Assembly (NCBI GenBank): GCA_948144175.1
Contig: CANXME010002528.1
Location: 558,001 to 622,000 of the forward strand
DNA length: 64,000 nucleotides
Origin: Closterium sp. NIES-65
Taxonomy: Eukaryota; Streptophyta; Zygnematophyceae; Desmidiales; Closteriaceae
Direction: 5' to 3'
Of the stretch, positions 8,170-40,090 are shown piece after piece. The notes beneath the pieces are model-generated. The model saw nothing but the letters and a program-made list of their open reading frames with translations, was not told where the DNA came from and made no database searches. Position 1 is the stretch's first letter; the number at the start of each line of letters is the position of its first letter. The translations under genes and the position numbers were made by a program.

Positions 8170-8460
8170 GGTGGTAGTAAGTGATGATGGAAGGGAGGTG
8201 AGGGTGAGTTAACTGCGACTGTACAGGGGAGACTGAGGAGCGACGTGGAGGCAAGGGGTGTAAAGAATGACGGAAGGCATGCATGCGGAGGAATGAGGCA
8301 TGGAATGGTGGTTGTGCTCGTCTCAGCTTGCATGCCGCAGAGAGTTGGAGATTGGTCAAGTGGAACTCGTGTCTTGCAGTTGGACAGCAGCAGGTACAGG
8401 GCTGGTTGTACCCGAGACCACTGTGTGCATGAGGGAGCTGCATGGGAAATGCTTGCATGG
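8170..8460 (+). other. 3' flank of CC-LRR copy A, conserved with copy C
   Basis: The 290 bases after the stop align with 51172-51420 after copy C: shared words are GGGGAGAC, GGCAAGGGGTGT, CATGCATGCGGAGGA and GTGGTTGTGCT. A weaker match lies after copy D. This is probably 3' UTR. The similarity ends where the copia fragment begins. The last 34 bases (8427-8460) recur in inverted orientation at 26699-26729. Confidence 0.55.
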
Positions 8461-9529
8461 CTTCTCTTATGATGGAGGGCGAGGCAGTCATCAGGAGGGC
8501 GGGCGGGGAAGGGGAAAGGAAGGGGGAGGCGAGGCAGAGCAGGAGCGGAAGCGGATGGCCGCCTCCGCCTCCACTGCTACCACTAGCACCCCCACCCCCA
8601 CCACCTCCTCCACCGCCACCCCCACTCCCTCCGCCGCCTCCACCGCCACAGCCACCGCCCCCGCTAGCCGCACCTGCTCCCTTGCCCCCCTTGCCCTTGC
8701 CAGGGCGACGTCTCCCGCTAGGGGCAGACGCCGCACCGACCGACTCAAGGCCAACGAGGTCGGCCGCAGCGGCAGAGGCGACAGAGGGCAAGAGAGGGGA
8801 AGGAGAACACCCCTCAAAGATGGGGGCGCGGGGGTCACCTCGAGAGGCACCTACAGCGACGATGCTCTTCTCCGCCGCTAAGAGGGCCTTCTCTAGGCTG
8901 TCGACTGTGAGAGTGGTGGGACAGACCGCAAGGAAGTGGTCCCAGACTACACGAAGGGAGTCAGGGAGGCGGGTGACTAGACAGTAGAGAGTGATGTACA
9001 TGGGGGGGGGGGTTCTTGGCGCAGAAGTCAGCAGGAAGCGCAGCGCGGTAGCGGGTGTCACTAGTGCGGAGGTGCGTAATGAGATCAGCGACTGTGGGAA
9101 AGGCGGCAAGGTCAGGGAAGAGGAAGGGTAGCATGAGGCGGCTCAGTGCAGCAGTGGCAGGGGAAGAGTAGCGTGCAACTACAGCGTCGTACAAGGTCTG
9201 AGCACTCTTGTACTGACTAAAGTGCGCGCGCTCAGCGGTAGGCAGGTGGCGACGCACAGCAAGACGTGCAGCTGCATCGCGGGTGGCCCACTGAGAGCGA
9301 ACAGTGGGGTCAGCATCAGCAGCAGGGGCAGGAGAGGCGCCAGAGGTGAGGTCAAAAAGAGAAAGACCGTCCGCCCTATCGCACTGTAAAAACAGCTGCA
9401 GGTCGTCGACCCAGACCTCAAAGTCAATGGCTCGACCCTCAGCGTCAAAAGCGAGGACACTAGGGGTAGTCATGACGACAGACTAGCAGTGCAAGCAGTG
9501 GGGGAAGGGCACGCAGTAGCAGTGGGGCT

Positions 9530-10450
9530 GTGCTCACCAGACAGGGCAGGTCGGGCGGCTCGGCAGTAGTGCGGCTCGTCTGCGAGGTGGCTCGGCGGTA
9601 CTGCAGCTCGGCGGCCCGGCGGCTCGGCGGCTGCTGCTGGGCGGCTCGGCTGTACTGCGGCTCGGCGGCCCGGCGGCTCGGTGGCTGCTGCTGGGCGGCT
9701 CGGCGGCTGCTGCTGGGCGGCTCGGCCGGGTTGCGGCTCGGCGGCTGCTGCTAGGCGGGTCGGCTGCTCCGGTACCGGGCGGCGTGGCGGGCGGCTGCTC
9801 GGGCGGCTCGGCAGGAGGGGAGACCGGTGGGGCCGCGACGGTGAAGGCGGCGGGGCCGCGTAGGCACGGGCGGTGAGGCCGAGAAGATGAGGGCGGCTGG
9901 GCCGCGAAGGTGAGGGCGGCGGGGCCGCGTAAGTGAGGGCGGCGAGGCCGCTACGTAAGGGCGACGGGGCCGCGTAGGTAAGGGCGGCGGGGCCGCGTAG
10001 GTGAGGCGGCGGGGCCGCAACGTGAGGGCGGCGGGGCCGCGACGTAAGGGCGGCGGGGCCGCGCAGGTAAGGGCGGCGGGGCCGCGACGTAAGGGCAGCG
10101 GGGCCGTGATGTGAGGGCGGCGGGGCCGCGACGTAAGGGCGGCGAGGCCGCGTAGGTAAGGGCGGCGGGGCCGCGACGTAAGGGCGGCGGGGCCGCGACG
10201 TGAGGGCGGCGGGGCCGCGACGTAAGGGCGGCAGGGCCGCGCAAGTAAGGGCGGCGGGGCCGCGCAGGTAAGGGCGGGGTTGGCCGCGACGTAAGGGCGG
10301 CGGGGCCGCGACGTAAGGGCGGCGGGGCCGCGTAGGTAAGGGCGGCGGGGCCGCGACGTAAGGGCGGCGGGGCCGCGTAGGTAAGGGCGGGGGGGCCGCG
10401 TAGGTAAGGGCGGCGGGGTCGCGTAGGTAAGGGCGGCGTAACGGGCCGCT
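9530..10450 (-). repeat. GC-rich minisatellite leader of copia element 1
   Basis: Between primer-binding site and gag lie two arrays. At 9560-9770 there are repeats of GGCGGCTCGGCGGCTGCTGC type. At 9830-10450 there are about 27 copies of a 22-bp unit centred on GGGGCCGCGACGTAAGGG, with variants in which CGACGTAA becomes CGTAGGTAA. Both are nearly all G and C on the plus strand. Apparent proteins across this stretch are repeat artefacts. Confidence 0.85.
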
Positions 10451-10553
10451 AGGGGCGACACGAAGGGTCGCTAAAAAAAAAGAACGCGCGCCTCGGAGCG
10501 CGCTTCGGTGGGCCCTAGCAACAGTCCCTAGGAGGGGACCTGCTCTGATTCCA

Positions 10554-10685
10554 TGTGAAGAAGTGAACGAGAATGAAATGACTATGAATGAAGTGAGTAC
10601 ATATAGGAAACCCTAATTGGGTTGTACCCCCTATGGGATACCCCACTATAGCCTACACAAATAAGTAAGCTATAATGTTCTGACA
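10554..10685 (-). repeat. Copia LTR, alpha type (132 bp), shared by elements 1 and 2
   Basis: On the minus strand it begins TGTCAGAACATTATAGC and ends CACTTCTTCACA, followed directly by the primer-binding site of element 1. It differs at about three positions from the alpha LTR at 32173-32304. It follows the shortened 3' UTR of element 2, so the same copy serves as 3' LTR of element 2 and 5' LTR of element 1. Confidence 0.85.
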
Positions 10686-10784
10686 GTTAAAGGCCACAAG
10701 GCCAGTTCACATGCAGGAGTACATATATATATAAGGCTAGACAAGTGAGAGCAGGTATATATATATGTAACAGTACAAACAAGG

Positions 10785-13700
10785 TCAAGAGGTGAGCAAG
10801 TGAGGCAAGACAGGGACAAGACCCAGCTGTGTGCAGAACCGCTGATGATCACAAGGCGGAAGTGCCTTGGTGAAGACATCAGCAGTGTTGGCCTCAGAGG
10901 CCACGTAAGCAAGCCGCAACTGTCCACACTGCTGTAGCTCACGAGCAAGGAAGTAGCGGAGAGCAATGTGCTTTGTTCTGTGCTCCAGCCGCTGCTCTCG
11001 ACACAAGGCCAGCATGGCCTTGTTGTCTACGTATAGAACTGGAGGAGAACGAGGCGGCTCTCCGAGGTCGGTCAGCAGGTAGGTGAGCCAGTGAAGCTCC
11101 TGTGCAGTCATGGCCCCAGCGTAGATCTCGACCTCACAACTGGAGCCGAGAACAGAAGACGAGCGAGTAGCCCGCCACGAGACAGAGCCGGAACCAAGGC
11201 TGAAGGTGTAACCCTGTGACGACCGCTGTGTAGCCTGGTCGTCAGCCCAAGAAGCGTCCGCGTGCCCAGTGAGGACCACTGGACGTCGCCCTCCAAGCAC
11301 TAGCCCCATGCCCGACGTACTGCACAAGTAGCGCAACACCCTCTTCGCTGCAGCCATGTGCTCTGGTCGGTGTCTCCCAGGAGTAACATAGCGTGCGATA
11401 ATGCTAAGAGGGTATGCAAGGTCAGGTCGTGTGCAGGTCATCAGGTACATGAGGCAGCCAACAAGCTCTAGATACGGGCCACTCGACTCTACGGACTCAT
11501 CCGAAGGCAGAGCTGAGAGCGAGTGGCGAGTAGGCAGAGGAGTGGCCTGAGGCGAGGAGTACGTAAAGCCGAAGCGCTGAAGGACGTGCTGCACCATGTG
11601 TGACTGAGTCAGGGTAATGGTGCGGCGTGCTCTGTCCCGGGTGATCTGCAAACCAAGGTAGCTGCGCAGTTCACCCAGGTCTGTGCATATGTGTCTCTTC
11701 TGCTGCTCGGACTTCACGTAGGCGAGTCCAGCAGTGTCAGCTGTGGCAAAGACCAAGTCGTTGACGTACACGAGGATGTAGAAAGGCGGCAGAGAGGTGT
11801 CGGTGCGCAGAAACAGCGACGGGTCGGCAGTAGAAGGAGCAAACCCAAGAGCCGCAAGTGTAGTCCTCAGTGTGTCGTGCCACTCACGGGGTGCCTGGCG
11901 GAGACCGTAGACTGGCCGCCGGAGGCTCCACTGGGTACCAGGAGGGAACGACCCAGTGAAACCAGGTGGGCGGCGCAGCCAGATCTCCTCGTGGAGGCTG
12001 CCCTGCAAGAAAGCTGTGCTGAAGTCGAGAGAGTGCAGCTCGTAGTCTCGGTGAGCAGCAACGTGCAACAGTACCCGAAGAGTGGTCATCTTCGGGGTGG
12101 GAGAGAAGGTCTGAAAGTAGTCAACTCCCTGCCGCTGACTGAAGCCACGAGCGACGTAACGCGCCTTGAAGACAGGCGGAGAACCCGGCGGCCGCTTCAC
12201 CCTGAAAATCCACATGCCACTGACGATGTTCGCCTCAGGAGGGGGGACAGTATCGACGTAGGTGCCTGTGGACTTCCAGGAAGCAATCTCTGCATCCATA
12301 GCTGCCTGCCACTGAGAAGAGTAGGGACCCTTTATCGCCTCCGCGTAAGAGCGCGGAGTCGGGATGTCAAGTGCATCCGGGTCTCCCTCAAGGGTAAGCA
12401 GTACGGACACGAGATGAGGTGAAGCAGCGGCCAGGCACTAGAACTCCTCCTGCCTGTCCTCAAGGACGTCCGTGCCAAGGGCACACTCACCCCCAATCGA
12501 CGGAGGACAGACAGACTCAGACTCAGCGACAAGACTCGCAGCGTAGTCTAGGCGACAGCGAGCAGCAAAGTCGACGAGCTCAGCAACTAGGGCAGACGCA
12601 GCAGTGGACTCGAAAGAAGGGTCAGTGACGACAGTAGCAAGGAGACGCGTGACAGTAGGACTGGCAGCACGAAGAGAGTCCGACTCCGGGTCGGCAAGAG
12701 CAGGAAGAGAGGACTCAGGAGGAGAAGACAAAGGGGCACACAGAGGAGCAGTGGACGGACGCAGAGACATCTGGTGCGTGCCAGGGACAGGAGGAGGACG
12801 CTGACGTGAACCGCGACCACTAGCGCGAGCAGCACGAACAGGTGACGCAGGACGAGACGCAGGCTCACGACGCTCAGCAAGACCTCCAGTAGGACCAGTG
12901 TAGGGAGAAGGAGCAGGCAGTGGGGAGGCAGGCTGTAAGTGTAGCTGTGACGGGACAGGCTGCGGACACTCTAAGGGAGGAGGAGGAGGACAAGTAGAAG
13001 GCGGAAGACCAAGAACCTACTGCAGGAGCGGAACAAAGTACGGTCGAGGCCGCGCGGCGACGCTAGACACAGCAGGGACAGCACCAGGACCTGAGCAGGA
13101 GCACCCGCTCCAGCAGCACCTCCAGCAGCTCCAGAACCTCCAGCAGCACCAGCAGCACCCACAGCAGAACCGGGAGCAGGAGGCTCAGCACCCTCGCCCG
13201 TAGTAGCACCAGCTCCAGTCGAACCCGCAGGCCCAGTAGCTCCAGTACTCCCAGTACGAGCACCTCCGGGACCAGCGGCACCAGCACCCTCAGCAGCCGA
13301 AGAACCTCCAGCTCCAGCAGCACGCCTCCAGCGCCGGGCAAACCACTCGCGCAGCTCGGGCGGAGAGAGTGGCTCCCGGTTAGAGGAAGCACCCGGAGGA
13401 CCTCCCGGCGTAGCACCTCCAAGCTCAGCACCCCCAGGTACAACACCTCCAGGCGTAGCACCCCCAGGCTCAGCACCCCCAGACGCAGCACCCCCAGGCT
13501 CAGCACCCCTAGGCGTAGCACCCCCAGGCTCAGCACCCCCAGTCTCAGCACCCCCAGGCTCAGCACCCCCAGTCGCAGCACCCCCAGGCTCAGCACCCCC
13601 AGTCGCAGCACCCCCAGGCTCAGCACCCTCAGCAGCACCAGAGTCACTAGTAACCTCGACAGGCTCGACTGCGTCTACCTGGGACACACCTGAAGGGGCA

Positions 13701-16553
13701 GGACCCTGAGGGGGGAGGGGGTCTACCAGGGGGGGACCTGGTACAAGGAAGAGCGGGGGAGCGGGGAGGGACGGAGTGCAGTAGGGGAAGAGGCGGTAGT
13801 AGGGGATCGACTCGTCAAACGTGACGTCCTGGGAGGACAGAACACGTCGGGAGGTGGGGTGGTAGAACTGCCACCCAGGCGCGTCAGGGGGGAACCCCAG
13901 GAAGACGCAAGGAGCAGCACGAGGGGACAGCTTGTCCGCAGACAAGTAGCGGACAAACGCCCGAGATCCCCAGACCCGGAACGCCGACGCACCGCCAACC
14001 TTCCCCGTCCACAGCAAGGCTGGAGAGGTCTCCGGCCTGGAGACCCTGGGGTGGAGGTTGATCTGATGCGCCGCGTACCTCACCGCAAACGGCCACAGAA
14101 AATGGGGGGCAGCCGCATGCATCATGGACGTACGAGCGACGTCCATGACCATGCCAATGCGGCGCTCAGCAATCCCATTTTGCTGCGGAGAGTCCGGAAG
14201 CATGAAGGTCTGACGGATGCCTCGTGCGCGACAGTAGGCTCTCAGAAGGCCAGAGGAAAACTCTCCGCCTCTGTCCGAGTGCAGACGCAGAACAGGAAAG
14301 TCCGAGCCAAAGCTCTGCCTGAGCTGGAGACGAGCTGCGGATCCAGTCGATCAGCACCTCAGTGACATCACCCTTGCTGCGCAAGGGGAAGATTGCGGTG
14401 TAACGCGAGTAGTCGTCAACAACAAGCAGGAAGTAGCGCTCGTGACCCTGTCCACGGACGCGGGCTGGGCCCCACACGTCCATGTGAAGCGTCTGCAGAG
14501 GGGCCTCTGTCGGAGGAAACTGGGAAGAGTGAGGGGCAGCCCTCTGGCGCCCCTCGACACAGGGGACACAGGAAGGGCCAGGCTCCTGAGGAAGGGGAGG
14601 GAGGGACCGGGGGAGACCAGAGACAAGAAGACGAGAGGCCATGCCTCTGAGCCGAAGCAGAGAGGGGTGACCAAGGCGGTGGTGCCAGAGGAGAGTCTCG
14701 TGAGAGAGGAGACGACACGAACAGGGGGCAGACTCAGGACCAGACCTGGACGCTGCAGCAAACACCTGACCTGACGCAGACACCCTACCAGACTCAGCAA
14801 CTGGAGGAGACGCAGTGGTCAGTGTGTACAGGCTCGACCCCGGCTGACGTGTAAACGTAGCCAGGTGTCGGCCTGTGCGAGCCTCTGTGCAGTGCGTCAC
14901 TCTCTGACGCGCAGGATTGAACTGGTGAACTCCCCCATCCTGTAGGTCAGCACCACTCACCAAGTTCATAGAGAACGAGGGGAGGTAGAGACAAGTCAGG
15001 GTGCCAGAGGGAGCCGCCGGACACGGGAGGACTGTGGAGAAGTGAGACAGGACAGGACCCCCAGAGGGGTCAGCCAGAGACACCGCAACCGGCCGACTGA
15101 GCGGCGTGAGTGTGGTGGGGTCCCGGAAGAAGGAGCTAGAAGCCCCAGAGTCAAGGGTGAAGGTGAGGGAGGCCGAAGCCGACGCAGTACCTGAGAGTGC
15201 AGACTCACCAGTACCTGACGATGCAGACGCACTAGAACCTAGAGCAGCAGCGTCGCAAGCACCTAGGGCAGCAGCCGCAACAGTACCGAGAGCAACAGGC
15301 TCAAGGCCCGGATCGGGCGGGAAACACCGGTAACAGTCACCCTCATCACTAATAGACACAGAATACATGGCAGACAGAATAGCATCAAAATCAAGATCAT
15401 AGATGGCAACTCCCGCCCTAGACAGCTCGCCCCAGCGAGGGATCTCGGTGGCCTTAGGGAACTGGTGACGCCACGCGTCCATAAGGCGGCCAAAGCAGCG
15501 CTGGGTGGGGTGCGCACCCTCACACTGCTCACCCGCACGGTCGCCGGTGCGCAGGACGTAGGTGCACGGACCAAAACCCCCACCCCGTTGGCGTGCAGTG
15601 TACCACTCACGGAGCTGCGAAGGGGACAGGGTCTCACGACCACGCTGCTGCTGCTGGCGCGGACCACCACCGGAGCCACTCCTCTGCGTAGACCCGCGAC
15701 CAGCTCCACCGCCACCTCCGCCGCCTCCGCCGCCACCTCCACCGCCCCCGCCAGCTCCTCCAGTGCCTTTGCCCCCCTTGCCCCTGCCTGTGCGGCGCTT
15801 CCCCGAAGGGGCAGACGCAGCGCCGACCGACTCGAGACCAACGAGGTCCGCACCAGCAGCAGAAGCGACAGAGGGGGGAGGGAGAACACCCCTCAAAGAC
15901 TAGGGTGTGGGGGTCACCACGAGAAGCTCCTACAGCGACTTTGCTCTTTTCCGCCGCTAGGAGGGACTTCTCGAGGAGGTCAATGGTGAGGGTGGTGGGG
16001 AACACAGCTAGGAACTGGTCCCTGACCACTCTAAGGGAGTCAGGGAGTCGGGTGACTATGAAGTAGAGGGTGATGTACATGGGGGGGGGGGGTTCTTGGC
16101 GCAGAAGTCAGCAGGAAGCGCAGCGCGGTAGCGAGTGTCACTAGTGCGGAGGTGCGTAATGAGATCAGCAACTGTGGGAAAGGCAGCAAGGTCAGGGAAG
16201 AGGTACGGCAGCATGAGACGGCTTAGTGCAGCAGTGGCAGGGGAGGAGTAGCGTGCAACTACAGCGTCGTACAAGGTCTGAGCACTCTTGTACTGACTAA
16301 AGTGTGCACGCTCGGAGGTAGGGAGGTGGCGACGCACAGCAAGACGTGCAGCAGCGTCGCGCGTGGCCCACTGGGAACGAACAGTGGCGTCAGCATCAGC
16401 AGAAGGGGCAGGGGAAGCGCCAGAGGTGAGGTCAAAGAGAGAGAGACCGTCTGCCCTATCGCACTGTAAGAACAGCTGCAGATCATCTACCCAGACCTCG
16501 AAGTCAATGGCCCGACCCTCAGCGTCAAAAGCTAGGACACTAGGGGTAGCCAT
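10785..16553 (-). pseudogene. Copia gag-pol of element 2, inactivated
   Basis: Order on the minus strand: gag (16553 to about 15900), Gly-rich linker, an unusual Cys/His motif (C-x13-C-x3-H-x4-C), protease LDSGAS, GAG-pre-integrase HRLGHPSLLRL and CVPC, integrase core (HMDVWGPA, HSD, AERRIG), a PGGAE repeat spacer, reverse transcriptase and RNase H, ending PHLLTS at 10785. Breaks: a 12-C tract at 16092-16081; an extra C near 15880; a 2-base deletion near 14345; a 1-base deletion near 13105; and TAG stops at 13019-13017 and 12437-12435, both where element 3 has CAG. The RT active site reads YVND instead of YVDD (near 11770), which should abolish catalysis. The copy cannot encode a working polyprotein. 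Confidence 0.88.
13420..13640 (-). repeat. In-frame minisatellite coding GGAEPGGA repeats, element 2
   Basis: Between integrase and reverse transcriptase the polyprotein has a run of Gly-Gly-Ala-Glu-Pro units, coded by 15- and 30-base repeats of the GGTGCTGAGCCTGGG type. The matching stretch in element 3 is 29100-29330, with a different number and order of units. It is a flexible, length-variable hinge. Confidence 0.8.
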
Positions 16554-16619
16554 GACGACAGTAGACTAGCAGTGCAAGCAGTAGGGTGAGGGCAGTGCAG
16601 TGAAAGAGGCGCTGTGTTG

Positions 16620-17550
16620 ACCAGACAGGGCAGCTCAGGCAGGTCGGAAGTAGGGCGGCTCGGCGGCTCGGCTGCGGGGCGGCTCGGTGGCTCGGCTGCA
16701 GGGCGGCTCGGCTGCTGGGCGGCTCGGCTGCTGGGCGGCTCGGCTGCTGGGCGGCTCGGCTGCTGGGCGGCTCGGCTACTGGGTGGCTCGGCTGCTCGGC
16801 GGCTCGGCTGCAGGGCGGCTCGGCTGCTGAGTGCTCCGGTGCCCGGGCGGCTCGGCGGTGCTGCTGCAGGGCGGCGCGGCGCTGCAGCAGGTGAGAGGCG
16901 GCGAGGCCGCAGTAGAGGGCGGCAAGGCCGCAGGTGACAGCGGCAGAGGCCGCAGTAGAAGGGCGGCGTGGCGGCAGCACGAGGCGGCGAGACTGCAGTG
17001 AGGGCGGCGAGGCCGCAGTGAGGGCAGCGAGGCCGCCGCAGAGACGGGCGACGACGGGCCGCGCTAGAGTGGCGGCGGGCCGCTGTGGATAGGGCGGCGA
17101 CGGGCCGCTGTAGGGCGGCGGCAGGCCGCTGGGGATAGGGCGGCGACGGGCCGCTTTAGGGCGGCGGCAGGCCGCTGCGGTGGGGGGGCGGCGTCGAGCC
17201 GCTGCGGAGCGGGCGGCGACGGGCCGCTTTAGGGCGGCGGCGGGCCACTTCGGAAAGGGCGGCGGCGGGCCGGTTAAGGGCAGCGACGGGCCGCTGCAGA
17301 ACGGGCGGCGGCGGGCCGGGTTAGGGCGGCGACGGGCCGCAGCAGAACGGGCGGCGGCGGGCCGCTTTAGGGCGACGGCGGGCCGCTGCGGAAAGGGCGG
17401 CGGCGGGCCGCTTAGGGCGGCGGCGGGCCGCTGCGGAAAGGGCGGCGACGGGCCGCCTTAGGGCGACGGCGGGCCGCTGCGGAAAGGGCGGCGACGGGCC
17501 GTCTTAGGGCGGCGGCGGGCCGCTGCGGAAAGTGCGACGGGCCGCTAGGG
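16620..17550 (-). repeat. GC-rich minisatellite leader of copia element 2
   Basis: From 16640 to 16830 there is a 16-bp unit (GGGCGGCTCGGCTGCT). From about 17040 to 17540 there are repeats of roughly 22-25 bp around GGGCGGCGGCGGGCCGCTGC. The position matches the leader of element 1, but the second array uses a different unit. Apparent coding frames here are artefacts. Confidence 0.85.
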
Positions 17551-17667
17551 GCCGCCGATAGATTAGGCGCGCTTCGGGCAGGGGGGCAGGACGCGCCCCG
17601 GGCAGGAAAAAAAAATCGGTCGGTGGGCCCTAGGAACTGTTCCCACGAGGGAACCTGCTCGATACCA

Positions 17668-17800
17668 TGAGGAAATACAAACGAGAATGAAATGAACTAT
17701 GAATGAAGTGAGTACAAGTACTAACCCTGATTGGGTTGTACCCCCTATGGGATACCCCACTATAGCCTACACAAAAGCATAAGCTATATATGTTCTGACA
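17668..17800 (-). repeat. Copia LTR, beta type (133 bp), 5' LTR of element 2
   Basis: On the minus strand it begins TGTCAGAACATATATAGC and ends GTATTTCCTCA, followed by the primer-binding site. It differs from the beta LTR at 32421-32553 at only about two positions, both near the start, and much more from the alpha LTRs. The adjacent host flank is GCGCG in element orientation. Confidence 0.88.
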
Positions 17801-17879
17801 CGCGCTCGCTCTTTACTCTAAGATCTATAATTTTTTCACTCATTCCAAATTCCTGCTGCCAGATACGCCTTTAGAACAG

Positions 17880-18075
17880 ATCCAGTTTCCCCATTGGACA
17901 GATTCAGTTTCCCCGTCCAGACAGAGTCAGTTTCCCTGTTCGGACTGATCAGTTTCCGTTCGGACAGATTCATTCTCCCCATTCAGACAGAGTCAGTATC
18001 CCTGTTCGAACTGATCAGTTTCCGTTCGGACAGATTCAGTTTCCCCATTCGGACAGACTCCGTTCCCCCATTCAT
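17880..18075. repeat. About 70-bp tandem repeat, 2.5 copies
   Basis: Words such as GGACAGATTCAGTTTCCCC, AGACAGAGTCAG and CTGTTCGGACTGATCAGTTTCC recur in the same order two to three times. This is unique sequence outside the beta LTR; no gene is evident. Confidence 0.7.
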
Positions 18076-18099
18076 ATCCCCTCTCCAGTTCGGCCTGTG

Positions 18100-20086
18100 G
18101 CATTGAGCCTTCCCAAAACCTTTCTCACGTTCACCCTTGGCTGCGCGGCTGCGTCAATCTGCCATCTGCCATCTTCCCATGTGCCCTGTCGCCCTCACCT
18201 GCGGAGCTTGTCAAACTGTCTCCTGAGAAGCGCCTGGCTCCTACTGGCACCTTGCTGCTGTCCTTCCACACACCAGGTACGCATGCACGCCCATCCTGTT
18301 GTCGGTGCTCTCCTCACTTTGCGTGTATTTTATTCATCTCATCCCTTTTCCGTGCTGTTTGTCTCTTAGCGTTTTATTAGCTCTACTACGTTTACATGTT
18401 CAATGCCACTCACCCCACCTACAACTTGCTGCTGCTACGTCTGTCACTAGCTTTGCGCTCGTTTCTTCCTTTTCCTCCTCTCCTTCTGGGCCTGCCATTC
18501 ACTTCGTCCGATTGTCGTGATGATTGATGAAAGAGAATCTTGCTACCCGCAAGCTTCGTGCCATGCCTTGCCATATGCCATCTTCGTGAAATTCACTGTC
18601 TTCTCTCTTCCATCTCCCATGCCTCCTGCATCTCTTCCACCCGCAGCCACTCACCTCCTCAGCTGCCCCTTTCCTACTGCTGCCAATCGTGCTTTACACT
18701 TCAGCCGCTCCGCCAGTTGCACTTCGCTCTGCTATCATCCTCTGAGGTGGGCATCCCCTGACTTTTGTACCTCCAGAATATTCAAGTATTCCCTCTCTGT
18801 CCTTTCTTGTTGCTGTGTCATTACCGCGCAGACCTCTATCTCCCTCTCACCTCACCACATTCAAAAGTGCACCTGTCAGCCCTTTCTACCACTTCCCCTG
18901 CTCCCCTCTCCACGTGCGACTCATCCCTATGTACTCATCCCATCCGTTCCTACCACTGAGTAGCTTACCGATCCGATCCGGGTGCTCTTGTTCACGCCAC
19001 ACCATCCAGTTCTCCGTTCACCTGTCACCTCACGTGGCTGGTTTCTTCTCTCTCAAAATCCCGCATTGCGTGCTCGCGTCGGCTTCCCTCACATGTGCGA
19101 TCGTGGTAAGGAGAACAGCTGGCAGGCACACATGGCATATCCCATGCCATGCTGAGCTCGTCGCCTTGTCGTATTGCTGCTCCGCCTCCTCGTGCAGCAT
19201 CGTATCTGGCTGCTTTCCTCCGTCTGGCTTCCTTTCTGATGTCAAGTTGTGGTGCAAGTGTCGTTATCAGTTCATACAGGATTGGATATGCCTATTATAA
19301 GAGACTTCAAAATGGAAAGTCATTGGTTTTCTCCTTTCAATTCCTTTCTTGGTTGCTTTTTCATTCGACTCACTCTATCTGACTCACGCTAATTGACGCT
19401 TTATATTAGCGCTCTGTGCACCTCTCCAACCTGCTCATAATCCCCCGTCCGTCTTATTTGGTTCCTCTCACTGTTTCGTTTGTTGTGCTTCAGGTTCACT
19501 CTTTCAGCAAGTTTCTGCCTGCTCCGTTTTCTCCTTCTACTATGCTTGGCCTTCAGGCCTTGCCAGTCTAAGTGAACTTCGGTTATACCACCACCCAATG
19601 CAGTCCCTGCGGCTCGCTGCCCTTTACGCCCTGCATTCGTTTTCGCCCCGTTGCAACCATTTGCAGATCCGCTTCTTGGCAGTCCTCGCTCGCACTTCTT
19701 GCCCCTCGTGACATCTCCTCCTAGCCTCCCCTTGTTCCATTGCCGCCAGGCTTCATGCCAAACGCATGTGTGTGTCTGCACAAGCTTTCTCCTCTCACGG
19801 CTGATCCAATCCACATATGCATCCCATTGTGTGTGCCTTGAATATCACCCGTCTGCCTCCTATTTTCGACATTTGAACCTAATTTATTCCGCCCTTGTCT
19901 TCTTCCACCAGGCTGCAGTGAAGGAGGAAGGCAAGGATCGTGTGAGGGGAGTGAGAAGATGATACGGCTGCCTACTCTACTCCGCCCTTGTCTTCTTTCA
20001 CAAGGCTGCAGTGAAGGAGGCAGCGGAGGAGGAAGGCAAGGACCAGCCGTTGAAGTCGGATCGTTTTAAGGGAGTGAGCGGACGAT
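18100..20086 (+). other. 5' region of CC-LRR copy B (non-coding exon and introns)
   Basis: At 18220-18276 a GAGAAGCGCC...CACACACCAG stretch followed by GTACGCA matches copy C (donor at 46322) and copy D (donor at 62043, minus strand). It is probably a shared 5' UTR exon ending at 18276. A second shared block covers 19080-19260 (CTTCCCTCACAT, CGTGGTAAGGAGAACAGCT, GTGGTGCAAGTG). At 19885-19930 and 19977-20030 a roughly 95-bp unit with GGCTGCAGTGAAGGAGG is tandemly duplicated just before the ATG. No protein is supported in this stretch. Confidence 0.5.
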
Positions 20087-21506: not shown

Positions 21507-21556
21507 TGACCTTGTCATTGTTGCTTTCTCAATCTGACAAGCCCAACCGATGTTGA

Positions 21557-21787
21557 CCCATGGCTCCCTTTCTCATGGCTCCCTTTCTCATGGCTCTCTT
21601 TCTCATGGTTCCCTTTCTCATGGCTCTCTTTCTCATGGCTCCCTTTCTCATGGCTCTCTTTCTCATGGCTCCCTTTCTCATGGCTCCCTTTCTCATGGCT
21701 CCCTTTCTCATGGCTCCCTTTCTCATGGCTCCCTTTCTCATGGCTCTCTTTCTCATGGCTCTCTTTCTCATGGCTCTCTTTCTCCCA
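21557..21787. repeat. 15-bp minisatellite TTTCTCATGGCTCCC
   Basis: About 15 near-perfect head-to-tail copies start 50 bases after the end of copy B. Variants are mostly CCC to TCT. The 15-base period keeps all frames open, so the small frames here are artefacts. Confidence 0.95.
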
Positions 21788-21799
21788 TGACTCCACTGA

Positions 21800-23560
21800 C
21801 CCTTTCATTCCGGATTATTATCTCCTTATCGTCAAGTTAATTGTTTTAAATAGTGTAGGCAATGTGTGCTTGTGTATTGCGACAAAGCCCGCAATTCCAT
21901 TTAGTGCCAAATACAAGGGTAAATCTTTTGCAAGGAACACAATCTATTGCATTGTATGTGTGCTTGTAGTATTATGGCAAAGCCTGTAGTATCTCCGATA
22001 TCTCGTTCCACCACCCTCTGTTCCCCATTGCCTCATTTCTCTCCCGTGCTCCTCCCGTTTCCACTCCGCTTAAACTTCCCGCCACCTTTTTTTCCCTTCT
22101 CTTCTCCCCACCTATATTTTGGCACTCTTGATTTTCTTTGCCTCTCTTAATCTTCCCACTACAACTATGCATGTCGTTTCACCACCATATCTTTTCCCAA
22201 TCTCCCTTTGCATGTCTTTTGAAGAACTTCTCAAGCCTTGTCTCCATAACTCTCTCACGGCCCCTCATGACTTCTTTCCCTTCCTTTAGTTCCTCACGGC
22301 AGTGTGGTGTGGTGCACCGGCAATCTTCATGTGGAGGGATTTGCCTAGGAAGTGCGAGTCACTTTGCTTGGTCAGTACAATGTGAGTGGATGGACCAGGA
22401 GGGGTTGGTCAACCAGGCAGGGATACCGTTTGGAAGTGAGGAAGGGGGGAGTGGGGGTAAGAGGTTGGGAGGTACCAGGGGGGTGGGGAGGTGAGTCAGG
22501 GGGGGAAAGAGAGGGGTGGAGAGGGGGTTTGGCAGTGCAATGAAGTGGCTATTTATGGGAAGGGGGAGTGTGTTTTGGCGGAGTGCCGTAGCAGTTGGCT
22601 TGCCTTCTTAGCATGGTGTGGCAAAAGATGATGCTGGTGGAGAGGGCAAGTTGGGGTAGTTCATGCTAGTTGCATGGGCACAACCAATATGGCTGGAGCG
22701 GCCAGTATTTAGAAGCATGAATACAAATTTGAAAGTACCCAGCTTATGGTGGAAATAATCTAATTGTGACCGACACGACCAGCTACTTGTGCAAGAAACC
22801 CCATGCACATCTCACCCCATGTCACATCTCATACATATGTTCATCCCAAACCTAGTGACTTGCCCAGTCCGATACTGCCAAATCTCATTCCACATTGCTT
22901 GTATTACATCAGTGTCGCTCTCGAGTTACTTTGTTTCCCGCACCATCAATGCTTTGCCGTCTCGTGCAATGTGTCCATGGTTATGAGGTCGGTGGACGAT
23001 TATTCAATGTTCTCTATATATATCATTATTGAGATTGAAGCATCCAAAAAGCTGATTTTTTTACAATGTTGTTATGTTAAGGCTCCCACCCAAATCCTCC
23101 TGTCAATCAGTTGCTTTCCCATCTGCTCCCCCACTATCTTAGCCAAGCAGCAGCTCCGTGGCATTCACCTACCCAAGCACCGCAAATTGCATCGCCTACC
23201 CATTAGAACGGGATGAAGGTTATGGTTTCATTCACCTGCTCAATCCCTGCTTTTATCCCAAATTATTTTAGGCTACTCTAGCCTCTGTGTTTGTGCATCC
23301 TGCAATTCCTCCTCTCGAGCGTATTGCGTGTATGTAATTTCATATGTATGCGATGCAATCCCAGTATACGTGTAATGCATACATTCCAGCTTTGACAGTA
23401 GCGAATGTACTCCAAACGTGTTTAAAGTAATAATTGTTCTCATCCCACAAAGCCCATCTTTTGTTCCCCTTCCCTCCCTTATCCCCCCTTGGCTGCTTGA
23501 GGCAGTCTCAAGTCAGTGAGCCACATGACCAGCCATAAATGGAAAGGGTAGTGTCGGGAA
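21800..23560. other. Intergenic stretch, no gene recognised
   Basis: Pyrimidine-rich sequence with AT-rich patches and short frames lacking known motifs. At 22440-22540 there is a G-rich, imperfect GGGGGAGTGGGGG stretch. Nothing further is supported. Confidence 0.35.
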
Positions 23561-23576
23561 GAGAACGTGAACATGC

Positions 23577-24380
23577 ACCTCATCACATACCTCATCACAT
23601 ACCTCATCCCATACCTCATCCCATACCTCATCCCATACCTCATCACATACCTCATCCCATACCTCACCCCATACCTCATCCCATACCTCATCACATACCT
23701 CATCACATACCTCATCACATACCTCATCACATACCTCATCACATACCTCATCCCATACCTCATCCCATACCTCTTCCCATACCTCTTCCCATACCTCATC
23801 CAATACCTCATCCCATACCTCATCCCATACCTCATCCCATACCTCATCCCATACCTCATCCCATACCTCATCCCATACCTCATCCCATACCTCATCCCAT
23901 ACCTCATCCCATACCTCATCCCATACCTCATCCCATACCTCATCCCATACCTCATCCCATACCTCTTTCTGTACCTCATCTTATACCTCATCCCATACCT
24001 CATCCCATACCTCATCCCATACCTCATCCCATACCTCATCCCATACCTCATCCCATACCTCATCCCATACCTCATCCCATACCTCATCCCATACCTCATC
24101 ACATACCTCATCCCATACCTCATCCCATACCTCATCCCATACCTCATCCCATACCTCTTTCTGTACCTCATCGCATACCTTATCCCATAGCTCACCATCC
24201 CATGCCTCACTCACTAAACACCTCATTCCATCCCTGATCCCATACCTCACCCCATACCTCATGCCATCCCCCATCCTCCGCCTATCTCATACCTCATCCC
24301 TTACCTTCCATACCTTATCCTATACCTCAACATTGCAGACCGCATTTTTACCTCACCCCATACCCCATCGCATACCTTCT
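23577..24380. repeat. 12-bp minisatellite CTCATCCCATAC
   Basis: About 50 nearly perfect units run from 23577 to 24200, with sporadic variants (CTCATCACATAC, CTCTTCCCATAC, and two CTCTTTCTGTAC units near 23965 and 24155). The array degrades over the last 180 bases. The unit also occurs in inverted orientation at 52158-52245. Because 12 is a multiple of three, all six frames stay open; these are not genes. Confidence 0.95.
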
Positions 24381-24384
24381 CCCT

Positions 24385-26600
24385 ATGGCCAGCAGTCAGC
24401 AGTTTGATTTGATCGTAGAATCGCATCATGCCCTGAACTTCATAACATCACCTCTAGGATATGGGATGAGCACAGGATGCCCTTGTTCGTGTTCGCTCCA
24501 TGTATTAAACATCCTGTCCCTCCCTGACCTGGATCACGCTCCTGTTCCTGCCATCGCCCTCCCATCTTCTCCCCCTCCAATCTAGCCGAGCAGCACCGCA
24601 GTCATCGCACCCTCAGGCACCACCACTCCCACATGACATGCATCGCAATTGCCTTCCATCACCCGAATCCCCCCCGCCATGTCCCATTTGCGCTCCTGTG
24701 CTGCTGATACATATGTTTTGATGCTCTCTCCCCCCCTGTTTCACTTCCCACCTCACCCCCACTGTCACCCCTCCCCTCCCCTCCCATCTCCCCTCCTTCT
24801 TGAAGGTTGGCTGCTGCTGTCCGCAAAGGTGCCATGTGCACTAAAAATCGACTTTCAGTGATGTTTGTTTTCACCCCCAAACCCACTTTTTCTACCCCTG
24901 CCCTCCTCTAGCTGCTTCTCATTGTCGCCTCGCCATGATGGCATCTCGTAGTGGGAGGTGAGGCTGGTGAAGTAAGCCCACCACCACCCCCTGCCCCCCC
25001 TCCCCCCTCCCTACAACATCCATCCAACCTTCTCAACCCCCTTCCCTTTCAATCCCGTATCCCTCCTACCACTCCCTCCCTGCCATATCCCTATTTCTAC
25101 CCTCATTTCTCCCTTCGCCATCTCCGAGTTCCCCACTCAACCATCGCACCCACATTCAATTTAACTCACATTCAGAGTGGCAAGGAGGTAACGGCTCTGC
25201 CCTCCGTTGCTGCAGCAGAGGGGGCCTTGAGGTGAATGTGCATGGGGGTGGACCGCTGTGGGGCTAAAGGGCAGGGTTGAGCGTCATGGTTGAAAAAAGG
25301 ACAAGACGTGCTGCATCTGTTGTTGCGACTCGTGAGTCCATTGTGAAAACGGAGAATATGTGGGCCTTCATACGGGTGTAAGAGAGTGGACAGCTGATGC
25401 CGACTAGCGATCGCAGCAGCAAGGACAGCAGCAGCAGCAGCACGAGCAGCAGCAGCAGCAGCACGAGCAGCAGCAGCAGCAGCAGCCTTGCAGGATTCGC
25501 TCTCATTGCCTTGCTTTCCTCGAGCCAAAGATACCAGGGGTGATAGGAGGAACGTGTTTCACAATCAGCAAATCGGCAAGGTCGGCAACCTTGACAGATC
25601 CGGCATAGATACCACAGTTCCAAACACCCCACCCCACACCTCTTCTCACATTCCCGTTGGCTCATCACATACTACACAATGTCGTTTCTAAGCCTTCTGT
25701 TTCGCTACGTCCTTTTTCTCTCGTGTGTGCCCCTCGCACATGCTTTCCCTTCGCTCAGTTGCAGCATCTTCTTTAGCTCAGAGGGATAAGCCATACAGCA
25801 GCAGAACCCGAGTCACTAGTAACCAGCCATTGAGTGGGTGGTATGTGGCCGTGGTAACGAGGTACCAGCAGTTGGGATTCTGTTGCTTTCCAGTATGCTG
25901 GAACAGAGTGCATGGCTGCCTCCAGCCCATCTACCCATGCATCGTGGAGGGCGAATTGTTTGATGCCTAGTGGTGAATCAGATGAATGTGGTATGATACT
26001 TTTCATATCCTACTTGCCTACTGTATGCTAGTAAAGAAAAGAGCTGTATGGGTGGGTGATGCAGCAGTATGTGTGACTTGTACCCATTTCCATGCATGCA
26101 CACGCCCACTTCTGCTTCACCTCTTCCCTCTGTCCCACTCCCACCCATCGCACATGCGTAGACTACTGTACGATTTTATACAAATCAAGTGTGATGGAAC
26201 ATGGAACTTCTCATTTATACAGAGGCACTGATGAAATTCTCTAGAGCATTCTAAATTTGACAACAGACTCAAGTGGTGCATGTTTTATCTGCACCTAACT
26301 TCAGACCAACAAGATGAGAAGCTGAACCTCACCATCATGCATCTCTTTTCTGCTACCTTGTACACATCGTTGCAGTATGAGGTCAATGCACTTGTTTACA
26401 ACCAGTAAACCATCAGCTGTTCACAGGTGAAGCCTTGCCCAACCACCAAGTTTCAAACCATCCACTGACTCCACACTCCTTGCCTACAAGCCTCTCCTAA
26501 ACAGCATCAATTATCTCCCTTACCCCCATCATCACACCCTGCCCCCTATCTGCGAGCACAGATCCTCACTGCACACACCCAGTTCCCTTGCAGCAGCAGA
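24385..26600. other. Intergenic stretch with an AGC microsatellite
   Basis: No gene is recognised. A run of AGC triplets interrupted by ACG lies at 25417-25487. Elsewhere there are C-rich tracts and short frames without motifs. The part 26600-26729, read on the minus strand, resembles the 3' flank of the CC-LRR genes. Confidence 0.4.
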
Positions 26601-26945
26601 AGCATTCAGAGCAATACATAACGATGATCATTGAGGTGGTCCATCATACACTTCGCCTTTCCCCTGTGACGGCACTTGTACACCTGGCACCCAAACAACC
26701 ATGCATTTCTTATGCAGCTCCCCTCATGCAGTTACGCAAAACATTACTCACCCCTCATCTCAACCCTTACCGGCCGCCGCCGCTGCTGCTACTGCCACTG
26801 CTGCCGCCACTGCCGCCACTGCTACTGCACTGCTGCCGCCACTGCTGCTGCCACCACTGCGGCTGTCAACTGCTGCCACTGCTGCCGCCCGCAATGCTCT
26901 CAATGCTCCCTTGCTCGCCCTTCTCCCCAGCTTCCCCGCCTCCCG

Positions 26946-29900
26946 TCGGCGGCGGCGGTACTGGCGGGGGTGGCGGCGGTGGCGGAGGTGGAGGCGGTGG
27001 AGGTGGAGGTGGTGGAGGTGGTCGGAGTGGCACTTCACAGCGGAGCGGCACTGGGGGTGGTCAGCGCCAGCAGCAGCAGCAGCAGCGTTCTCGCGACGTC
27101 CCCACCCCTCAGCAGCTCCGTGAGTGGTACACGCAGCGTCAGCGTGGTGGGGGACTTGGTCCCTGCACCTACGTCCTTCGCACCGGCGACCGTGCGGGTG
27201 AGCAGTGTGGGGGTGCCCACTCCACCCAGCGCTGTTTTGGCCGCCTGACGGACGCTTGGCGTCAGCAGTTTCCGGAGGCCACGGAGATCCCCCGCTGGGG
27301 AGAGCTGTCTAGGGCTGGCGTAGCTATTTTTTATCTTGACTTTGATGCTATCCTTGCTGCCATGTATGCTGTGACCATTAGTGATGAGGGTGACTGTTAC
27401 CGGTGTTTTCCGCCCGACCCGGGCATTGAGACTGCTGCTCTAGGTACTGGTGAGGCTGCTGCCCTAGGTGCTTGCGACGCTGCTGCTCTAGGTGCTAGTG
27501 TGTCTGCGTCCTCGAGTACTGGTGAGTCTGCGCTCTCAGGTACTACGTCGGCTTCGGCCTCCCACACCTTCACCCTTGACTCTGGGGCGTCTTGCTCCTT
27601 CTTTCGTGATCGCACCACACTCACGCCGCTTAGTCGGCCGGTTGCGGTTTCCCTGGCTGACCCCTCCGGGGGTCCTGTCCTGTCTCGCTTCTCCACTGTC
27701 CTCCCGTGTCCGGCGGCTCCCTCTGGCACCCTGTCTGGTCTCTACCTCCCCTCGTTCTCTACGAACTTGGTGAGTGGTGCTGACCTACAGGATGCGGGAG
27801 TCCACTAGTTCACCCCTGCTCGTCAGCGGGTGACGCACTGCACAGAGGCTAGCACAGGTCGACACCTGGCTACGTTTACCCGTCAGCCAGGGTCGAGCCT
27901 GTACACACTGACCACTGCGTCTCCCCCAGTTACTGAGTCTGGTAGGGTCCCTGCGTCTGGTCAGGTGTTTGCTGCAGCGTCCAGGTCTGGTCCTGAGTCT
28001 GCCCCCTGTTCGTGTCGTCTCCTGTCTCACGAGACTCTCCTCTGGCACCACCGCCTTGGTCACCCCTCTCTGCTTCGGCTCAGAGGCATGGCCTCCCGTC
28101 TTCTTGTGTCTGGTCTCCCCCGGTCCCTCCCTCCCCTTCCTCAGGGCCCTGGCCCTACCTGTGTCCCCTGTGTCGAGGGGCGCCAGCGTGCTGCCCCTCA
28201 CTCCTCCCAGTTTCCTCCGACAGAGGCCCCGTTGCAGACGCTTCACATGGACGTGTGGGGCCCAGCCCGCGTCCGTCGACAGGGTCACGAGCGCTACTTC
28301 CTGCTTGTTGTTGACGACTACTCGCGTTACACCGCAGTCTTCCCCTTGCGCAGCAAGGGTGATGTCACTGAGGTGCTGATCGACTGGATCCGCGCAGCTC
28401 GTCTCCAGCTCAGGCAGAGCTTTGGCTCAAACTTTCCTGTTCTGCGTCTGCACTCGGACAGAGGCAGAGAGTTCTCCTCTGGCCTTCTGCGAGCCTACTG
28501 TCGTGCGCGAGGCATCCGTCAGACCTTAACGCTTCCGGACTCACCGCAGCAAAATGGGATTGCAGAGCGCCGCATTGGCATGGTCATGGACGTCGCTCGT
28601 ACGTCTATGATGCATGCGGCTTCCCCCCATTTTCTGTGGCCGTTTGCGGTGAGGTACGCGGCGCACGAGATCAACCTTCACCCGAGGATCTCCAGGCCGG
28701 AGACCTCCCCAGCCCTGCTGTGGACGGGGAAGGTTGGCGATGCGTCGGCGTTCCGGGTCTGGGGATCTTGGGCGTTTGTCCGCGACTTGTCTGCGGACAA
28801 GCTGTCCCCTCGTGTTGCTCCCTGCGTCTTCCTCGGGTTCCCCCCCGACGCCCCTGGGTGGCAGTTCTACCACCCCACCTCTCGCCGTGTTCTGTCCTCC
28901 CAGGACGTCACGTTCGACGAGTCGGTACCCTACTACCGCCTCTTCCCCTACCGCACTCCGTCCCTCCCCCCACCCCCGCTCTTCTTGGTACCAGGTCCCC
29001 CCCCGGTAGACCCCCTCCCCCCTCAGGGTCCTGCCCCTTCAGGTGTGTCCCAGGTAGACGCGGTCGAGCCTGTCGAGGTCACTGGTGACTCTGGTGCTGC
29101 TGCGGGTGCTGAGCCTAGGGGTGCTGCGACTGGGGGTACTGTGCCTGGGGGTGCTGAGCCTGGGGGTACAGAGCCTGGGGGTGCGGAGCCTGGGGGTGCT
29201 GAGCCTAGGGGTGCTGAGCCTGTGGGTGCTGTGCCTGGGGGTGCTGAGCCTAGGGGTGCTAAGCCTGGGGGTGCTGAGCCTGGAGGTGCTTTTCCTGGGG
29301 GTGCTGAGCCTGGAGTTTCTTCGCCTGGAGGTTCGCCGGGTGCTTCGTCTCGCCGAGAGCCACTCTCTCCACAGGAGCTGCGTGAGTGGTTTGCCCGGCG
29401 CTGGAGGCGTACTGCTGGTGCTGGAGGTTCTTGGACTGCTGAGGGTGCTACTGTCGCGGGTCCCGGAGGTGCTCGTACTGAGAGTACTGGAGCTGCTGGG
29501 CCTGCGGGTTCGACTGGAGCTGGTGCTGCTGAGGGTGTTGGTGCTGAGACTACCGCTGGCGGTCCTACTGGCGGTGCTCCTGGTGCTACTGGGGGTTCTG
29601 GAGCTGCTGGGGGTGCTGCTGGAGGTGCTACTGGAGCGGGTGCTCCTGCTGGGGGTACTGGTGCTGTCCCTGCTGTGTCTGGCGTCGCCGCGTGGCCTCG
29701 ACCGTACTTCGTTCCACTCCTGCAGCAGGTTCTTGGTCTTCCACCTTCTACTGGCTCTCCTCCTCTCTTAGAGCGTCCACAGCCTGTCCCGTCCCAGTCA
29801 CAGCTATAGCCTGCTTCCCCCTTACCTGCTCCTTCTCCCTACGCTGGTCCTACTGAAGGTCTTACTGAGCGTCGTGAGCCTGCGTCTCGTCCTGCGTCAC

Positions 29901-31957
29901 GTGTTCGTCCTGCACGCGCTAGTGGTCGCAGTTCGCGTCAGCGTCCTCCTCCTGTCCCTGGCACGCATCGGATGTCACTGCGCCCGTCCACTGCTCCTCT
30001 GCGTGCCCCTTTACCTTCTCCTCCTGAGTCCTCTCTTCCTGCTCTTGCCGACCCGGAGTCGGACTCTCTTCGTGCTATCAGTCCTACTGTCACGCGTTTC
30101 CTTGCTACTGTCGTCACTGACCCTTCTTTCGAGTCTTCTGCTGCGTCTGCCCTCTTTACTGAGCTCGTCGACTTTGCTGCTCGCTGTCGCTTAGACTGCG
30201 CTGCTAGTCTTGTCGCTGAGTCTGAATCTGTCTGTCCTCCGTCCGTCGGGGGTGAGTGTGCCCTTGGCACGGACGTCCTTGAGGACAGGCAGGAGGAGTT
30301 CCAGTGCCTGGCAGCCGCTTCACCGCATCTCTTGTCCGTACTGCTTATCCCTGAGGGAGACCCGGATGCACTTGACATCCCGACTCCGCGCTCTTACACG
30401 GAGGCGATAGAGGGTCCCTACTCCTCTCAGTGGCAGACAGCTATGGATGCAGAGATGGCTTCCTGGAAGTCCACAGGCACCTACGTTGACGCTGGCCCCC
30501 CTCCTGGGGCGAACATCGTCAGTGGCATGTGGATCTTCAGGGTGAAGCGGCCGCCGGGTTCTCCGCCTGTCTTCAAGGCGCGTTACGTGGCTCGTGGCTT
30601 CAGTCAGCGGCAGGGGGTTGACTACTTTGAGACCTTCTCCCCCACCCCGAAGATGACCACTCTTCGGGTACTGCTACACGTTGCTGCTCGCCGTGACTAC
30701 GAGCTGCACTCTCTCGACTTCAACACTGCGTTCTTGCAGGGCAGCCTGCACGAGGAGATCTGGCTGCGCCGCCCACCTGGCTTCACTGGGTCTTTCCCTC
30801 CTGGTACCCAGTGGAGTCTCCGGCGTCCAGTCTACGGTCTCCGCCAGGCGCCCCGTGAGTGGCACGACACACTGAGGACTTCGCTTGCGGCTCTTGGGTT
30901 TGCTCCTTCTACTGCCGACCCGTCGCTGTTTCTGCGCACTGACACCTCTCTACCGCCGTTCTACATCCTCGTTTACGTCGACGACTTGGTCTTTGCCACT
31001 GCTGACACTGCTGGACTCGCCTACGTGAAGTCCGAGCTGCAGAAGAGACACACGTGCACAGACCTGGGTGAACTGCGCAGCTACCTTGGCTTGCAGATCA
31101 CCCGGGACAGAGCACGCCGCACCATTACCTTGACTCAGTCACACATGGTGCAGCAGGTCCTTCAGCGCTTCGGCTTCACGTACTCCTCGCCTCAGGCCAC
31201 TCCTCTGCCTACTCGCCACTCGCTCTCAGTTCTGCCTTCGGATGTGTCCATAGAGTCGAGTGGCCCGTTTGCAGAGCTTGTTGGCTGCCTCATGTGCTTG
31301 ATGACCTGCACTCGACCTGACCTTGCATACCCTCTTAGCATTCTCGCACGCTATGTTGCTCCTGGGAGACACCGACCAGAGCACATGGCTGCAGCGAAGA
31401 GGGTGTTGCGCTACTTGTGCAGTACGTCGGGCATGGGGCTAGTGCTTGGAGGGCGGAGTCCAGTGGTCCTCACTGGGCACGCGGACGCTTCTTGGGCTGA
31501 CGACCAGGCTACACAGCGGTCGTCACAGGGTTACACCTTCAGCCTCGGTTCCGGCTCTGTTTCGTGGCGGGCTACCCGCTCGTCTTCTGTTCTCGGCTCC
31601 AGTTGTGAGGCTGAGATCTACGCCGGGGCTATGGCTGCCCAGGAGCTTCGCTGGCTCACCTACCTGCTGACCGACCTTGGAGAGCCGCCTCGTTCTCCTC
31701 CAATCCTGTACGTAGACAACAAGGCCATGCTGGCCTTGTGTCGAGAGCAGCGACTGGAGCACAGGACGAAGCACATTGCTCTCCGCTACTTTCTTGCTCG
31801 TGAGCTACAGCAGCGTGGATAGTTGCGGCTTGCGTACGTGGCCTCTGAGGCCAACACTGCTGATGTCTTCACCAAGGCACTTGCGCCTTGTGATCATCAG
31901 CGCTTCTGCACCCAGTTGGGTCTTGTGCCTGTCTTTCCTCACTTGCTCACTTCTTGA
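26946..31957 (+). pseudogene. Copia gag-pol of element 3, interrupted by three TAG codons
   Basis: One frame is kept from the Gly linker to the end: Cys/His motif (CTYVLRTGDRAGEQC, then GGAHSTQRC), protease LDSGAS, pre-integrase HRLGHPSLLRL, integrase (HMDVWGPA, LHSDRGREF, AERRIG), PGGAE hinge, reverse transcriptase with intact YVDD (near 30975), and RNase H (ADASWADD, YVDNKAMLAL, KHIALRYFLARE), ending PHLLTS. The only breaks are TAG at 27806-27808, 29807-29809 and 31820-31822; element 2 has CAG (Gln) at each. There are no frameshifts, so this copy decayed by point mutation alone, or the stops are read through. Apart from these stops the RT and integrase active sites look sound. Confidence 0.88.
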
Positions 31958-32172
31958 CCTTACTTGTACTCTCACTTATATATACTCTTGCTCTTGCTTG
32001 CTTAGCCTCTTGTATATCTATATATATGTGTTCTTGCATGTGAACTGGCCCTTTGGCCTTTGAACTTGTGCTCGGAATGTGTGGTGACTTTGTCATCCAC
32101 CCTGAGCTTTGCCTTGTTTTGCTTGACTGGTCTTGTGACCCCTTGTTCTCCCCCACTTTGCCTATGGGGGTG

Positions 32173-32304
32173 TGTCATAACTTTATAGCCTACTTATTTG
32201 TGTAGGCTATAGTGGGGTATCCCATAGGGGGTACAACCCAATTAGGGTTTCCTATATGTACTCACTTCATTCATAGTCATTTCATTCTCGTTCACTTCTT
32301 CACA
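32173..32304 (+). repeat. Copia LTR, alpha type, first 3' LTR of element 3
   Basis: It runs from TGTCATAACTTTATAGCC to CACTTCTTCACA and matches 10554-10685 at all but about three positions. The bases after it (TGAACTTGTGCTC) repeat the 3' UTR that also precedes it. Confidence 0.88.
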
Positions 32305-32420
32305 TGAACTTGTGCTCAGAATGTGTGGTGACTTTGTGATCCACCCTGAGCTTGCTTTGCTTTCTTTTGCTTGACTGGTCTTGTGACCCCTTGTTCTCCC
32401 CCACTTTGCCTATGGGGGTG

Positions 32421-32553
32421 TGTTAGAGCATATATAGCTTATGCTTTTGTGTAGGCTATAGTGGGGTATCCCATAGGGGGTACAACCCAATCAGGGTTAG
32501 TACTTGTACTCACTTCATTCATAGTTCATTTCATTCTCGTTTGTATTTCCTCA
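32421..32553 (+). repeat. Copia LTR, beta type, outermost 3' LTR of element 3
   Basis: It runs from TGTTAGAGCATATATAGC to GTATTTCCTCA, followed by GCGCG. It is nearly identical to 17668-17800 (about two differences) and marks the outer edge of the composite element. Confidence 0.88.
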
Positions 32554-32957
32554 GCGCGAGCATGGAGGGCACATAGAGGGGGTGAACGAGGGAGGACAGG
32601 GGAGGGATGCTATCCTTTTGCCTCTCCCCTCGCACGCCCATCCTATCTGTTCGCGCCGTGTCCTGGATGAGACGCATCCAACCGACGAGCACCGCACATC
32701 ACCTGGACCCCCACCCCCTGCTGCTGATTCGTAGCTTGCGTACCTATGGCGCGCCACCTTCAACGAGCGCATGCACGCATGAGGTCGATCGCGACAGCAT
32801 GAATTTTACCGCGTGACGTCGCTCATGGACCCATCGACCTTTTCGCGAGTCCCCTTGTAACGCCTTTAGCGTTTTGTCTCATCTTAGCCTCGATCGCCAC
32901 TAACAGTTCCTGCCGCACTCAGCACGCCGTGGTGCCAGTTTGCTTGCATGTTGAATG

Positions 32958-34269: not shown

Positions 34270-34545
34270 TGTTATGAATGATCTTGCAGAGTGCGCAGTA
34301 AAACGAATATCGAGAATGTTTGAGTACTGAATTCGTGAATACAATGGAAGTGACGAGGCCTAAATAGGGGAAGTCCTAGCAAGGCGGGGAGGTTGGGCGA
34401 GGATGGCTCAGTGATGGATGCGATTGGTGCGGAGGCGACTCGGGAGTGGTTCGGTGCGACGAAATAGGAAGGACAGGTTCGTCGCGTGACCCTCGAGATG
34501 GCCTCGCTAACGAGTGCCTCAGTAAGGATTGTGCAAATCCTTACA
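34270..34545 (-). repeat. 3' LTR of the non-autonomous element
   Basis: 276 bp, bounded by CCCGT on the outside and a purine-rich tract (on the minus strand) on the inside. Differences from its partner are scattered substitutions with no length change. Confidence 0.92.
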
Positions 34546-38330: not shown

Positions 38331-38590
38331 CTCACATTAACGTCGCGACAGCTACAGCTGCCCGTTGCCCGGGGGGAGGGAGGCCACGGTCGATCGCGAC
38401 CGTTCGAGGCAAGGATCTGGCGGTGCCGAAGGAGTACCTGTAAAACCATGGCTGCGAGGAGCAACTAACTCGTTCTCCTGGCCGGCCTACGCAACTCCTG
38501 GACCCCAAGACATCCTTCCTCGTCCCCCCCCCCGAGGGGTACTACACTCTAAAAAGCGGGGTAGGCTAGGAAAGTAGCTCTGATACCAGG

Positions 38591-40088: not shown

Positions 40089-40090
40089 GC

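Follow-up and report, generated by a model that had tools for sequence, protein, structure and literature searches.

Ty1/copia retrotransposons of plant genomes are generally known to occur nested, copia inside copia, each with its own 5-base target duplication. The same arrangement is found in the window, i.e., the whole 64,000-nucleotide stretch of Closterium DNA analysed here, but the Closterium pair appears to have been split later by an inversion, and its elements carry a long glycine (Gly) linker in gag and GC-rich arrays in their leaders. Inversions produced by breakage and non-homologous end joining are described for Drosophila (PMC3355041). As in those cases, the breaks in Closterium show no mutual homology and one event covers both junctions, but the inversion is only 18.4 kb long, is without an inverted duplication at its ends, and has an ancestral order that can be read from split nested transposons rather than from sister species. 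It also resembles the transposon-linked inversions of PMC12368964 in having a transposon at a breakpoint; it differs from them in having no partner copy at the other breakpoint, and the element seems to have been a passive victim.

As assembled, the locus contains a rearrangement that separates the two halves of one copia element (alpha), itself nested in a second (beta). Its history is very probably that of a beta insertion, a nested alpha insertion and an 18.4 kb inversion by straight breaks and end joining. The features are as follows (window positions):

8557..26946: inverted segment, 18,390 bp; both ends cut alpha or its flank, and re-inverting it restores both nested elements
8557..10553, minus strand: element 1, the 5′ part of alpha (leader, gag and residues 1-40 of the Gly linker, which is cut after residue 40)
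10554..10685, minus strand: alpha 5′ LTR, 132 bp, with 3 differences from 32173-32304
10686..10690, minus strand: left copy of the alpha target duplication, TTAAC (one change)
10686..17667, minus strand: element 2, the beta leader, gag-pol and first part of the 3′UTR, with broken frames (91.3% identity to element 3; Pfam domains)
17668..17800, minus strand: beta 5′ LTR, 133 bp, with 2 differences from 32421-32553
17801..17805, minus strand: left copy of the beta target duplication, GCGCG
26947..32172, plus strand: element 3, the 3′ part of alpha (remaining Gly linker, pol and 3′UTR; Pfam domains), with stops breaking the frames
32173..32304, plus strand: alpha 3′ LTR, 132 bp
32305..32309, plus strand: right copy of the alpha target duplication, TGAAC
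32305..32420, plus strand: remainder of the beta 3′UTR, resuming behind alpha and matching element 3's own 3′UTR
32421..32553, plus strand: beta 3′ LTR, 133 bp
32554..32558, plus strand: right copy of the beta target duplication, GCGCG

Both elements have the hallmarks of Ty1/copia. Pfam domains above the cut-off were found in element 3 for gag_pre-integrs, rve and SH3_retrovirus (all in 27809-29809) and for RVT_2 (29810-31822), while the pieces of element 2 gave gag_pre-integrs, SH3_retrovirus and RVT_2 above the cut-off and rve below it. The integrase precedes the reverse transcriptase in the pol of both, and the LTRs of beta and alpha have TG...CA ends and are accompanied by 5-base target duplications (GCGCG/GCGCG for beta; TTAAC/TGAAC, with one change, for alpha). 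Behind the 5′ LTRs lie TGGTATCGAGC (beta) and TGGAATCAGAGC (alpha), candidate primer-binding sites with a possible likeness to the end of an initiator tRNA. In a self-comparison of the window, elements 2 (minus) and 3 (plus) were 91.3% alike over 5.1 kb (10685-15767), and elements 1 and 2, both on the minus strand, 77% alike over 2.1 kb of LTR, leader and gag (8610-10685). The leaders contain GC-rich tandem arrays with units of about 16-46 bases (9554-10438 in element 1, 16653-17540 in element 2), and the two arrays differ. The family is abundant: one piece of element 2 had 6,802 related proteins above the threshold, and the best 120 of these are predicted proteins of Closterium strains NIES-53, NIES-54, NIES-64, NIES-65 and Naga37s-1. 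The bodies of alpha and beta both carry broken reading frames, which may reflect decay, transmission of already defective copies or residual assembly indels.

The LTRs fall into two types (87.8-88.5% identity between alpha and beta), and the partner of each can thus be recognised across the breakpoint at 26946. The alpha pair is 97.8% identical, with three differences in 132 bases (10554-10685, minus, against 32173-32304, plus), and the beta pair 98.5% identical, with two in 133 bases (17668-17800, minus, against 32421-32553, plus), i.e., the pairs differ by 2.3% and 1.5%, respectively. All five differences lie within the first 18 bases of the LTR; two other LTR elements in the window have 11 and 12 LTR differences, which are more widely spread. 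The 3′UTR of element 3 is continuous up to its own LTR. That of element 2 ends at 10686, where the alpha 5′ LTR starts, and continues from 32305 behind the alpha 3′ LTR; the rejoined beta flanks match the 3′UTR of element 3 throughout, apart from small differences and gaps (two seam bases were left out). The partners of both target duplications are found only when 8557-26946 is turned back. For GCGCG, the probability of a match is 0.0010 for two 5-mers drawn from both 1-kb flanks and 0.0013 window-wide, figures that assume ordinary sequence, while the flank is in fact GC-rich and repetitive (GCGAGCGCG). The one change in the alpha duplication counts against the account of a nested pair split by inversion. 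As a control, each of the two other LTR elements examined is bordered on both of its own sides by perfect copies of a 5-base duplication:

39325-39329 and 45752-45756: GGTAG, control element
34265-34269 and 38867-38871: CCCGT, control element

The first of these (39330-45751, with GGTAG on both sides) is of the copia type, contains an uninterrupted frame of 1,592 aa (40151-44929) and has LTRs that are 98.6% alike; it may be young. The second (34270-38866, with CCCGT on both sides) has LTRs that are 95.8% alike and presumably lies in the minus orientation, as suggested by a primer-site-like motif before its right LTR.

On this sequence evidence, two insertions are read, alpha having entered the 3′UTR of beta, an element of the same family and in the same orientation, and the order of events is beta, then alpha, then the inversion. 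The initial annotation had proposed beta LTRs at 17668-17800 and 32421-32553 flanked by GCGCG, an inversion of 8557-26946 and an uninterrupted composite of about 14.8 kb; the first is borne out by LTRs that are 98.5% alike, the second by four concordant matches across the breaks, and the third by a computed span of 14,851 bp for the un-inverted nested pair. Its single insertion yielding one gag-pol after restoration is not upheld: two gag-pols are present, that of beta (element 2, between 17667 and 10686) lying wholly inside the inverted piece, and each of the two insertions has its own 5-base duplication.

The gag of alpha gives a fourth point of agreement. Element 1 breaks off within the Gly linker near 8557, and element 3 starts within it near 26947, in the opposite orientation. 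That these two elements are complementary and opposite was recognised from the outset, but element 1 had been credited with only the part 5′ of the linker and element 3 with only the part 3′ of it; the split falls inside the linker, with 40 residues remaining in element 1. These 40 and the 57 in element 3 sum to 97 residues. Among 321 fetched proteins, the linker is 84-104 residues long in 56 of 57 measurable copies (31 in the other), and a smaller set of 120 proteins gave 84-104 residues in 19 of 20 measurable copies. The sum is therefore an ordinary length, and little can have been lost or doubled at the gag break. Of the 42 copies with the pattern, 39 have a landmark such as VGSSSG at offset 30-31 (the other three at 4, 20 and 33); a manual count puts it at offset 30 in element 1. 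For a body of about 6.1 kb, the probability that two cuts fall so near each other by chance is 0.012, given a 36-base tolerance that was chosen post hoc. When the alpha halves were compared by subfamily, the difference had the same sign in 66 of 68 proteins, a consequence of element 2 being the more derived copy, and the per-half differences were uncorrelated (Spearman -0.10, p 0.42, 68 proteins). Protein P0024 of NIES-64 was the sole best relative to top both alpha halves together.

Since target duplications, interrupted 3′UTR, LTR pairing and linker halves all agree across the breaks, there is strong support for a single inversion of 8557-26946, later than the insertions, as the explanation of both junctions. 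In the proposed sequence, beta inserted first and duplicated GCGCG, and alpha then inserted into the beta 3′UTR in the same orientation, duplicating TGAAC, as the interrupted 3′UTR, the LTR ends and the target duplications show; finally, two breaks would have occurred and the 18.4 kb between them been rejoined in reverse. One break would lie in the (GGN)n Gly linker of alpha and the other about 9.1 kb beyond the 5′ LTR of beta, beside LRR copy A, where 8556 was presumably contiguous with 26946. Straight breaks repaired by end joining are preferred because the breaks have neither long homology nor an inverted duplication, and a microhomology of a few GC-rich bases may have assisted, since both junctions lie in GGC/GCC-rich sequence. 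On the gag side, and on that side only, little or no loss, duplication or homology is found, to within about 12 residues.

If the segment had been flipped in the assembly, then the true chromosome would carry the nested pair intact. This is improbable. The genome is repeat-rich (64.4% repeats in NIES-64, PMC10407611), which would favour such an error, but the window contains no N, and the longest exact inverted word common to 8300-8900 and 26600-27200 is 11 bases, leaving no overlap to cause a flip. In the restored state, moreover, the repeats are direct, not inverted. According to PMC10407611, the NIES-64 assembly (703 Mb) was built with Canu, and the PacBio reads behind it total 107 Gb and have an N50 of 30 kb; this N50 exceeds the length of the segment, an argument that applies only if the window is from NIES-64.

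The same inversion could have arisen by staggered single-strand breaks and fill-in, as was first suggested, leaving inverted duplications at both ends, but this course is very improbable. The short inverted copy reported near both breaks does exist (8426-8455 against 26730-26700; 87% over 31 columns, E 3.8e-4), and in a separate alignment only 4 of 1,975 random window stretches scored equally high. However, the breaks lie a further 101 and 216 bases beyond it, the sequence in between showing no similarity, and no inverted duplication abutting the breaks was found. It is also more diverged than the LTR pairs, which predate the inversion (4/31 differences against 5/265; P 0.003, rising to 0.023 when the LTR rate is set at its upper limit), so that it is most likely older than the inversion, as judged from its divergence. 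Nor is the linker doubled.

Two further explanations are barely credible. Independent truncated insertions of elements 1, 2 and 3, matching by chance, would suit so abundant a family (thousands of related proteins above the threshold), but for elements 1 and 3 this is rejected, given the concordant duplications, LTRs, 3′UTR and linker cut. Ectopic recombination between oppositely oriented copies is known to produce inversions whose breakpoints carry transposons (PMC3355041, PMC12368964), but would leave two chimeric complete copies with exchanged duplications, whereas here one copy is cut in two, each junction joins copia to non-copia sequence and the breaks share no exact word beyond the 11 bases given above; with no partner copy and no inverted homologous copies at both breaks, it was rejected.

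The 3′ flank of CC-LRR copy A had been thought to end near the left breakpoint, but the match of copy A to copy C already stops some 154 bases ahead of the break, at 8402, and the end of this similarity therefore does not mark the breakpoint. A search for its continuation across the inverted piece gave only short, chance-like matches. The non-copia parts of both junction reading frames matched none of 321 proteins, these being the top-listed relatives of the copia parts. A predicted protein of NIES-64, P0213 (266 aa), maps to the element 1 gag (9473-8663), and its last 30 residues are identical to 8219-8130 on the same strand. Its exons (8130-9473) thus come from the element 1 gag and from antisense LRR copy A, and its predicted intron contains the left junction. 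P0213 looks like the gene model annotated for the present locus and is probably a mis-annotated chimera. Regular long minisatellites were seen at 49286-50325 (20-base units, inside LRR copy C), 55938-57466 (20-base units) and 23577-24329 (12-base units).

On either side of the flank break there is a G-quadruplex motif, one at a distance of 31 bases (8497-8526) and the other at 2 bases (26908-26944), and both are on one strand once the inversion is turned back. Of all window positions, 4.6% are within 31 bases and 2.1% within 2 bases of one of the 31 G-quadruplex motifs, a proximity that was noticed post hoc. The Gly linker itself contains no strict G-quadruplex motif. It is conceivable, but doubtful, that the (GGN)n gag linker and G-quadruplex-prone flanks form a fragile site that draws breaks, and that the copia family might thereby seed small inversions across Closterium genomes.

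Titles and abstract openings yielded no report of such an inversion in Closterium. Large copy-number differences between Closterium strains have been published (PMC10407611), and the main text of that paper uses the word "inversion" a single time, when its introduction refers to other work. The inversion is small and of an ordinary kind, although its record is unusually legible, and it reveals no new mechanism. Its history can be read from one genome alone, the nested insertions having provided two independent target duplications that fix the former joins and the order of events, and the locus could represent a rearrangement that arose recently between Closterium strains.
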